A stretch of 64,000 nt of DNA from NCBI RefSeq assembly GCF_020405205.1, contig NZ_CP084469.1, positions 2,542,001 through 2,606,000 on the forward strand. The letters run 5' to 3'. The position numbers were made by a program, and so were the translations under genes. Below, in pieces: positions 30,577 through 40,646 of the stretch. The notes beneath the pieces are model-generated. The model searched no databases, was not told where the DNA came from, and saw only the letters and a program-made list of their open reading frames with translations. The stretch comes from Natrinema salinisoli. Lineage in GTDB: Archaea; Halobacteriota; Halobacteria; Halobacteriales; Natrialbaceae. Each line of letters begins with the position of its first letter. The stretch's first letter is position 1.

Positions 30577-31301
30577 CGAGTACGCTCCGGGATGCGATTT
30601 ACGCCGTTCGGAAGGCCCGATTGGGGCTCGAGCGCCGCCGGCTCGATTACGGGCGGGAGACGCGCGAGCGGGCCGACCGGCTGGCCGAGGTGCTCCCGGC
30701 GTCGGCCGCCGAACTTCGAGCGTACGAGCGGGAGTATGACGACCTCGAGTGGTTCCACGAGGCCTACGCCGACCGCGTCGACGAGATTCACGAGGCCGGC
30801 GTCGCGACCGACACGACGCACTGGCGCGACGGGGTGACGCTGTACGTCGTCTGTCGCGCGCTCGAGGTCGAGACGGTCGTCGAGACCGGCGTGCTGTTCG
30901 GCTCGTTCGACGCACACATCCTCGCCGCAATGTGCGAGAACGGCGGCGGGACGCTGCACGCGGTGGATCTGCCCGGCGGACCGCCGGGGCCGTTCGAATA
31001 CGGCCATCTGATCCCGGATCGCTGTCGCGGCCGGTGGGTGCTGCATCAAGGTGACGCGCGGGAGGTTTTGCCGGAACTGCTCGAGCACGTCGGTCCCGTC
31101 GATCTCTTTTTGCACGACTCGGACCACCGGCTGCCACACATGCGCTTCGAGTACGAGACTGCGCTTTCGCATTTGGAGTCCGGCGGCGTGCTCGCGAGTC
31201 ACGACGTGCGGCTCTCGAGGCTGTTCGATCAGTTCACCGATGCCAACGGGCTGCAGTCGTGCGTGGTCTGCGATACGGGGATCGCGCGGCGACCGCGCTA
31301 G
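30573..31301 (+). CDS. Class I SAM-dependent methyltransferase
   Basis: The 242-residue protein has motif I in VETGVLFGSFDAHILAAM (near residue 107), the acidic ribose-binding part LHAVDLPGG, and DLFLHDSDH as the motif IV/V region. It resembles Methyltransf_24-type enzymes that methylate sugars in surface polysaccharides. It starts with GTG, overlapping the phosphatase-like gene (GTGA), so the two are coupled. The stop shares a CTAG with the stop of the convergent regulator gene. Confidence 0.82.
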   Translation: MTSTLRDAIYAVRKARLGLERRRLDYGRETRERADRLAEVLPASAAELRAYEREYDDLEWFHEAYADRVDEIHEAGVATDTTHWRDGVTLYVVCRALEVETVVETGVLFGSFDAHILAAMCENGGGTLHAVDLPGGPPGPFEYGHLIPDRCRGRWVLHQGDAREVLPELLEHVGPVDLFLHDSDHRLPHMRFEYETALSHLESGGVLASHDVRLSRLFDQFTDANGLQSCVVCDTGIARRPR

Positions 31302-31759
31302 GACTCGTCTCGAGTCCCGGTCGCCCCATCCACCTGCTCCTCTCGAACGGCCCCCTCCTCCACCGCGTCGTCGCCCTCGGCTCGCAAGTCACGGAAGACG
31401 GCGAGCCGATCGGCCTGCCGGCAGAGCATCTCGCGCCCGGTATCGGTGAGGCGATAGGCGGGGACGCTGCTGCCGCGTTCGTCCCGCGGTATGACGAGGC
31501 CGCGACCGACGAGCGCGCGCAGGTTCGGCTCGAGTCGGGCGCGGCTCACCGTCGGATACCAGTGCTCGAGGGTCCACGCGATTCCCGAGGGGTACCCGGC
31601 GTAGCCGTCGCGCTCGCGGCGGGCGACGGCCTCGAGACAGTCGCGCTGGAAGCCGGTGAGTTCGATCCACGCGCGCCGGCCGTCTGTTGTGTGTTCGTTG
31701 GTGGGTGATTCGGCTGCTCGAGCGGGGGGTTCAAGGTCCCGCGAATCGTCGTCTGGCAT
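31298..31759 (-). CDS. PadR-like/winged-helix transcriptional regulator
   Basis: The 153-residue protein has an acidic linker start (MPDDDSRDLEPPARAAESP). A winged helix from about residue 30 follows (WIELTGFQRDCLEAVARRER ... IPRDERGSSVPAYRLTDTGREML), whose end is the typical wing 'YRLTDTGREML'. It should bind DNA as a dimer. An upstream ATG at 31786 is an alternative start. It marks the boundary before the AT-richer patch. Confidence 0.82.
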   Translation of the reverse strand: MPDDDSRDLEPPARAAESPTNEHTTDGRRAWIELTGFQRDCLEAVARRERDGYAGYPSGIAWTLEHWYPTVSRARLEPNLRALVGRGLVIPRDERGSSVPAYRLTDTGREMLCRQADRLAVFRDLRAEGDDAVEEGAVREEQVDGATGTRDES

Positions 31760-31985
31760 GGCTTTCGGGTGGTTTACGGAAGCCACGCGGGCCGGTGTTC
31801 AGCCACCGGGTCCGCATTTTCGGGACCGATTCGGGTAGCTGTGGGTCCGTCTGGCCTCCGTTATTCTGACCAACAGTATAATGTAACTCATATTTGATGC
31901 CATACAGACTCAAATAGAGACAATATGGCACCATTCTACTGCATGCCACCTGAAGTTATGACTGGAAAGCGTGACCATCGACTGA

Positions 31986-39678: not shown

Positions 39679-39690
39679 AGATATAAATTA
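39679..39690 (+). promoter_or_regulatory. TATA box of the structured leader
   Basis: AGATATAAATTA is the strongest TATA-like sequence in the region. With usual spacing of about 25 bases the transcript would begin near 39708-39716, at the first hairpin, giving a leader of about 200 bases before the zinc-ribbon gene. A second ATATAAA (39821-39827) could be another promoter. Confidence 0.55.
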
Positions 39691-39707
39691 CAATGAGTCA
39701 ATAGTTA

Positions 39708-39798
39708 GACCGGAAGCCGGTCTCCCGAGGGGGCGTCATCGAAACGTCCCGGGTGCTGAGCCCACCCGAGACTTGGCTTCTACCCGAAGGCGAAGCCA
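39708..39798 (+). ncRNA. Multi-hairpin 5' leader (candidate regulatory RNA)
   Basis: Consecutive stems are seen: GACCGG-AAG-CCGGTC (39708-39722); GGGGCGT/ACGTCCC with one G-U pair (39730-39750, loop CATCGAA); GGGTG/CACCC (39751-39767); and TGGCTTC/GAAGCCA (39774-39798). The last stem abuts the ATG of an upstream ORF at 39798. Stems 2 and 3 compete at one base pair and, with the CCC at 39724-39726, allow an alternative fold. Structure is read by eye; no family is recognised. Confidence 0.5.
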
Positions 39799-39914
39799 TG
39801 GTTGCATACATTCTACCGGGATATAAACGTCCCGCACGACAGCCGAATCGCCAGCCACAACGACCCTCGAGCCCGATCCCTCGGCCACGAGTACCTACAG
39901 GTGATCACCGATGA
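39798..39914 (+). CDS. 38-residue upstream ORF coupled to the zinc-ribbon gene
   Basis: ATG at 39798 opens a frame whose 38-residue product begins MVAYILPGYKRPARQP, is basic and Pro/Arg/Gln-rich, and ends TGDHR. Its TGA (39912-39914) overlaps the ATG of the next gene (39911-39913) as ATGA. The start codon sits at the foot of the 39774-39798 hairpin. Basic, Pro-rich content is unlike a usual haloarchaeal protein, so it may be a leader peptide or chance. A second frame through the same bases lacks an ATG. Confidence 0.4.
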   Translation: MVAYILPGYKRPARQPNRQPQRPSSPIPRPRVPTGDHR

Positions 39915-40081
39915 ACATCGACCTCGAGCCCACCGACGACAATTCCTCCCCGTTCCGGGACTGCCCCCACTGCGGCGACCCCGTCCTCTTCGCCGTCGTC
40001 ACCGGCCCCACCACCGGCACCGTCGAACCCTGCGGCTGTTCCCTGCCGCCGGAGCCCTTCGAGGACAGTAGCGGAAACTAG
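39911..40081 (+). CDS. Small zinc-ribbon protein
   Basis: The 56-residue protein MNIDLEPTDDNSSPFRDC contains CPHC at 18-21 and a second Cys pair CGC at 41-43, one zinc site. It ends in an acidic tail. The pattern 'FxDCPHCGDPVLFAVVTGPTTGTVEPCGCS' (part shown: CPHCGDPVLF, VEPCGCS) is a recurrent haloarchaeal small zinc-finger type. Its start overlaps an upstream ORF and is preceded by a long structured leader. Confidence 0.8.
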   Translation: MNIDLEPTDDNSSPFRDCPHCGDPVLFAVVTGPTTGTVEPCGCSLPPEPFEDSSGN

Positions 40082-40571: not shown

Positions 40572-40646
40572 TATAGTAGTCGTTGACAGTCATTGAATTC
40601 CCGCTCGAGTGCGAGCGGTGAGTAAATCGTTTCAACGACTACTATA
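40572..40646. mobile_element. 75-bp MITE-like inverted repeat
   Basis: Perfect 15-bp terminal inverted repeats TATAGTAGTCGTTGA (40572-40586) and TCAACGACTACTATA (40632-40646) flank 45 bases, which contain an inner hairpin CCGCTCG-AGTG-CGAGCGG (40601-40618). No ORF. The form is that of a miniature inverted-repeat transposable element. Its right end contributes ACTATACC, placed about 27 bases before the amidase ATG. Confidence 0.7.

Follow-up and report, generated by a model that had tools for sequence, protein, structure and literature searches.

A window of 64,000 nucleotides from Natrinema salinisoli (contig NZ_CP084469.1, positions 2,542,001 to 2,606,000) contains, at 39679-40081, a structured leader, a very short open reading frame (uORF) and the gene of a small zinc-ribbon-like protein, which raises the question of what the RNA structure ahead of these two small frames is for. 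A sequence-only reading of the locus had favored attenuation or leader-peptide control. From the comparison with relatives, we consider that the leader is probably a cis-acting translation-initiation RNA switch and a member of an undescribed RNA class of Halobacteriales, and that in Natrialbaceae the uORF relays its state by translational coupling.

The unit consists of a TATA box, the structured leader, the short uORF and a CPxC...PCGC zinc-ribbon gene overlapping the uORF stop, all on the forward strand. The TATA box (TATAAA, 39682-39687) had been taken to place the transcript start at the first hairpin, which begins at 39708 in the window copy. A start near 39708 agrees with the position of the TATA box; among the 134 copies for which the distance was scored, 122 have the box exactly 30 nt before the P1 5' strand. 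The uORF (38 codons, beginning MVAYILPGYKRPARQ..., 39798-39914) ends in a TGA that overlaps the ATG of a 56-residue CPHC ORF (39911-40081), as first described, and the proposed check of whether this overlap is conserved gave a clear answer: frame and stop-start overlap are kept in 147 of 151 Natrialbaceae units compared. The stop-start offsets are mainly -1 (68 units), -5 (64) and -8 (11), with few others. At one locus (L069), the uORF is shortened to 20 codons, yet it again overlaps a zinc ORF, here an extended one, through ATGA.

The 56-residue protein has four invariant residues, C18, C21, C41 and C43. With two Cys half-sites and its small size, the protein would be placed by sequence among the haloarchaeal CPxCG zinc microproteins. 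It resembles those of Haloferax volcanii as a very small protein with paired Cys motifs, but differs in having PCGC as its second half-site, in matching no NCBIfam or Pfam family above cut-off and in being multicopy under one leader; a CPxCG motif in itself does not guarantee zinc binding (PMC11241148). Searches of Pfam and NCBIfam with the zinc ORF and the uORF gave no match above cut-off, those for the zinc ORF all lying below it, and the AlphaFold model of the zinc protein was of low confidence (pLDDT 68, pTM 0.40).

The unit is present in about 26-29 dispersed copies in the Natrinema genome. The leader DNA matched 22 places and the zinc protein 23 places in this genome, the latter also in 33 of 61 relatives, and the uORF peptide was matched in 27 of 29 genomes of the genus. 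Covariance models, the first of which (R1) was built from 51 Natrialbaceae copies, found 26 strong members in the genome together with weaker ones. A pattern scan of named genomes returned at least 120 stretches, and among the matches listed all belonged to Natrialbaceae genera (Natrinema, Natrialba, Halopiger, Halovivax, Halostagnicola and others). No annotated feature lay beneath the Natrialbaceae leaders of the plasmid collection. The window itself contains one more, divergent representative of the RNA class on the reverse strand (31715-31862; 46.7 bits with the broader model R2, E 1.4e-6 for the genome), where the AUG abutting its P4 opens an ORF (31298-31759, reverse strand) with a weak PadR-like, winged-helix similarity (E 0.0037, below the Pfam cut-off).

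The four successive hairpins of the sequence-only reading all fold as described, but they make up only one of two folds, and a long helix (P1) and a hairpin inside the uORF (P5) had been missed. In the first fold, P0, P2, P3 and P4 coexist. P4 (39775-39797) pairs GGCUUC (39775-39780) with GAAGCC (39792-39797), so that its 3' strand ends directly at the AUG, as it does in the aligned copies. P0 is a local 5' hairpin (GACCGG/CCGGTC, 39708-39722) possible in this masked state; it is the least supported helix, and its covariation was weak and not significant in the swap test (described below) once clades were thinned. In the second fold, P1, P2 and P3 coexist. P1 joins 39712-39724 (GGAAGCC, GTCTC) with 39768-39781 (GAGAC, UU, GGCUUCU), and in the aligned copies GGAAGCC and GTCTC at the 5' end likewise pair with downstream GAGAC and GGCTTCC. 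This helix closes a three-way junction with P2 (39730-39750), which carries a conserved GAAA in the 3' part of its loop, and P3 (39751-39767; GGGUG, a 7-nt loop and CACCC), whose distal GUG/CAC pairs are nearly invariant across families; P2 and P3 are stacked in the junction without linkers, and both are backed by folding, covariation counts and conservation. As GGCUUC belongs to the P1 3' strand and also to the P4 5' strand, P1 and P4 are mutually exclusive. The earlier proposal that folding could mask or free the uORF start thus holds in the form of a P1/P4 exchange in which both helices covary, but the pairs then put forward for the switching (a base pair common to stems 2 and 3, and CCC at 39724 with GGG at 39751) differ from those that are conserved.

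The folding energy of the window copy alone was ordinary (z -1.15), with 25 of 200 shuffled sequences folding equally well, and chance was therefore excluded through comparison with relatives. In a swap test, the pairing of strands from the same copy was compared with that of strands exchanged between copies, after thinning of clades to 27 clusters. Own-copy strands paired better for P1 (z -4.3), P4 (z -8.0) and P5 (z -4.7), and covariation counts also support P1. Compensatory change in homologues, which had been suggested as a test of the stems, was thus found in P1, P4 and P5, and the stems are conserved. In six loci (L180-L182, L185, L186 and L199) the three strands have changed in concert, from GGAAGCC/GGCTTCC/GAAGCC-ATG to GAAACC/GGTTTC/GAAACC-ATG. 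When the Natrialbaceae set was aligned without fitting to the structure, covariation was modest, 12 pairs showing double changes against 5.9 in shuffled alignments; column counts for the lower part of P4 were not used in this family, GGAAGC-AUG and GAAGCC-AUG being one register apart.

These data also bear on the idea that the leader is a constitutive structural element, in which P4 and P5 flank the AUG and mark it or fix its start rate in SD-poor mRNAs, P1 being a mere folding alternative without a regulatory role. The positions of P4 and P5 relative to the AUG are indeed fixed, the AUG abutting P4 in aligned copies, and the two folds come out as nearly isoenergetic, with a mean difference of -0.74 kcal/mol (sd 3.6) over 139 copies; this suits such an element, switching being inferred from the two folds. 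But P1, the direct competitor of P4, is itself kept by covariation, including the three-strand changes. A useless alternative helix should decay, and for this reason we regard a purely constitutive role as unlikely.

The uORF was considered next to the RNA around it. P5 (CGGGA/UCCCG, 39817-39834) lies within the uORF, with its base 19 nt past the A of the start codon. The N-terminal half of the uORF peptide is conserved and the C-terminal half is not: codons 7-12 are conserved at the RNA level, with near-invariant third positions in the codons overlying P5 and AAA as codon 10 in 151 of 151 copies, and later codons vary. A compensatory change in P5 from CGGGA/TCCCG to CGAGA/TCTCG alters the peptide from PGYKRP to PRHKRL, which indicates that the RNA, not the peptide, is maintained there. 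Classical attenuation or leader-peptide control, in which the progress or stalling of a ribosome in the uORF decides the downstream fold, could appeal to the short, basic, Pro-rich frame that follows the leader and to its conserved N-terminal half. However, the conserved codons overlie this helix with its peptide-altering changes, the alternative helices P1-P4 lie upstream of the uORF AUG, so the structural arrangement expected of attenuation is not the one found, the C-terminal half of the peptide drifts, and other families carry the leader without a uORF. A regulatory leader therefore survives from the original proposal, but attenuation in the classical sense is very improbable.

Outside Natrialbaceae, R1 gave weak matches in further Halobacteriales families, where the same architecture occurs with different P1 and P4 sequences. 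A Haladaptatus variant reads GGTCTTCC...GAAGACC-ATG, and further variants in other families read GGGTTTCC...GAACCC-ATG, GGCTG...CAGCC-ATG and GCGGTCGTT...AACGAACCGC-ATG. With the broader model R2, 241 of 392 Halobacteriales genomes matched at E 1e-4 or better, the chance expectation in 392 genomes being about 0.04 if the rough E-values hold. In a sample of the phylum, 28 of 295 genomes matched, every one within Halobacteriales, and the RNA class was not found outside this order among these 295 genomes at the sensitivity of these models. Across 87 copies (from other families, plus divergent members of the Natrinema genome), the AUG is preceded by one of 26 different 6-mers. When each 6-mer was represented by a single copy, the lower part of P4, which is in neither search model, paired 6.0 of 7 positions with its own strand and 5.2 with swapped strands (z 5.6). 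In the cross-family alignment, 32 of 34 pairs showed double-sided changes and the covariation score was 0.553, compared with 0.151 in shuffled and at most 0.103 in slid alignments; this alignment was fitted to a model with P1, P2, P3 and P5, and its counts lean towards those helices. To test this without recourse to the RNA model, plasmid loci were retrieved by tblastn with two downstream proteins, and a leader ended at the ORF start in 5 of 14 fetched, including Halorubrum ezzemoulense and halophilic archaeon DL31; the loci without a leader were mostly homologues without the shared N-terminus or genes inside operons.

In Natrialbaceae, the gene behind the uORF is nearly always a zinc-ribbon paralogue. 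Outside this family, the AUG is usually the gene's own start codon, and the leader occurs without a uORF. The genes that follow it there are unrelated and often cysteine-rich, comprising SWIM zinc fingers (so annotated in Haladaptatus), other Cys-rich proteins, wHTH proteins and an integrase-like protein; ten of these downstream proteins gave nothing above cut-off in Pfam or NCBIfam. The first ORFs after the leader contain 3.0% Cys, against 0.96% in the long ORFs of the window. A link of the downstream genes to zinc is only partly general, a zinc-type Cys pattern being present in 44 of 72 first ORFs of non-Natrialbaceae copies and in 4 of 78 long ORFs of the window. At one locus (L401), the leader stands ahead of a 296-residue ORF that by eye resembles a CRISPR repeat-associated (RAMP) protein, its first 150 residues giving no Pfam match. 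In Haloarcula plasmids (L454-L458), leaderless relatives of the leader-associated SWIM-type genes lie directly before a TFIIB-family gene at 5 of 5 loci.

The enrichment of zinc-type patterns is one point in favor of a protein that binds the junction and stabilizes one fold, for example the encoded zinc protein regulating its own synthesis, and the conserved unpaired GAAA with the distal GUG/CAC pairs could be its binding site. The downstream proteins are mutually unrelated and some have no zinc motif, which makes one shared autoregulator unlikely and leaves room for a single trans factor. This is a subtype of the switch, whose likelihood overlaps with that of the switch as a whole, and we hold it as a tentative version of that reading.

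Haladaptatus plasmids carry a leader-SWIM unit at 162 places in 21 records. Such numbers (up to 26 places per record, beside about 26 dispersed copies in the Natrinema genome) and the two small overlapping ORFs, basic then acidic, recall a mobile or selfish cassette, either a toxin-antitoxin pair or a MITE-like element, with the RNA serving its spread or maintenance. Against this, no inverted repeats ending the copies and no target duplications were seen in the blocks inspected, the similarity extends from the promoter to the zinc domain, and the RNA class stands ahead of many unrelated genes. The basic peptide is poorly conserved beyond P5, and a toxin-antitoxin reading is not favored for this reason; a cassette of either kind seems most unlikely. 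Upstream of the leaders at Haladaptatus loci L331-L349, copy-specific palindromes (such as TTATTCCTTGTAAGGAATA) flank the TATA box, as if each copy had its own operator.

Returning to the translational switch, a plausible model can be proposed. Transcription would start at P1 or just before it. In the open state, P1 would close the junction with P2 and P3 and tie up GGCUUC, freeing the bases next to the AUG so that a ribosome could start; in the masked state, GGCUUC would pair with GAAGCC right before the AUG to form P4, and the 5' strand could form P0. Both helices, their mutual exclusivity and covariation, the fixed position of the AUG, the overlap and the distribution come directly from the computation, and from them we infer switching in the cell and which fold is ON. 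The fold with P1 would be ON and the fold with P4 OFF, since P4 directly abuts the AUG and translation in Haloferax volcanii is repressed when the start codon is masked (PMC8241225). The existence of two possible folds is no proof that their exchange is regulated, and one of them might never arise in the cell. For Natrialbaceae, the AUG that is freed would be that of the relay uORF, with the zinc protein made through termination-reinitiation at the overlap; the uORF is best read as a relay because overlapping gene pairs are translationally coupled in Haloferax volcanii (PMC6728339). Such pairs share the stop-start overlap of the uORF and the zinc gene, but here the upstream partner is a largely non-conserved peptide that would be under RNA control, and overlaps of 4, 8 and 11 nt predominate. 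A trigger would most likely be recognized at the unpaired conserved bases, the GAAA of the P2 loop, together with the distal GUG/CAC pairs of P3. P5 begins 19 nt behind the A of the AUG, close to the expected front of an initiating ribosome. We speculate that P5, at this distance, may help to hold the initiating ribosome on the start codon.

The model has counterparts among known systems. Translation-initiation riboswitches, like the synthetic theophylline switch that works by masking the AUG in Haloferax volcanii (PMC8241225), combine a junction domain with a strand that can pair either in an upstream helix or in a start-masking hairpin. Similarly, the present leader occupies the 5' leader of an mRNA, adjoining the start that it would control, and has two mutually exclusive folds with a common strand. 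Unlike them, it has no matching Rfam family, its P5 lies inside the coding region, and in Natrialbaceae it carries a relay uORF. It would work like a translational switch, and membership of the riboswitches, which needs a ligand, is not claimed. The Thermococcus fluoride riboswitch, also a natural cis-regulatory RNA of an archaeon, was in 2021 called the only experimentally determined natural archaeal riboswitch (PMC8241225); it has no similarity to the leader by Rfam search and belongs to other organisms and genes. Across 20 loci searched against Rfam at E up to 0.5, no family was found except a tRNA, and the window leader gave chance matches only. Viral contigs yielded four pattern matches without the architecture and none for the Natrialbaceae core, and nothing was found in a phage collection searched with one non-Natrialbaceae leader. 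Judged from these sequence comparisons, the RNA class is real, undescribed, absent from Rfam and, at the sensitivity of the models used, specific to Halobacteriales.

Hardly any natural RNA switch has been described in archaea, and the literature searched contained none from haloarchaea. It is conceivable, if doubtful, that the leader represents a natural class of haloarchaeal riboswitches, perhaps the first such class, that senses a ligand or an ion. Multicopy and found in unrelated families, it would govern access to the start codons of proteins that are mostly cysteine-rich, and its signal might be zinc, another metal or a thiol. A class present in most Halobacteriales genomes, with tens of copies in some and the start codon between two conserved hairpins, would open the study of start-codon choice by SD-poor archaeal ribosomes, and would place many orphan genes for zinc proteins under a common control system.

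Elsewhere in the window, a perfect 15-bp inverted repeat (TATAGTAGTCGTTGA) at 40572-40646, with arms 45 nt apart, has a MITE-like appearance. The genome contains 7 occurrences of the 16-mer CTATAGTAGTCGTTGA and none of its reversed control.
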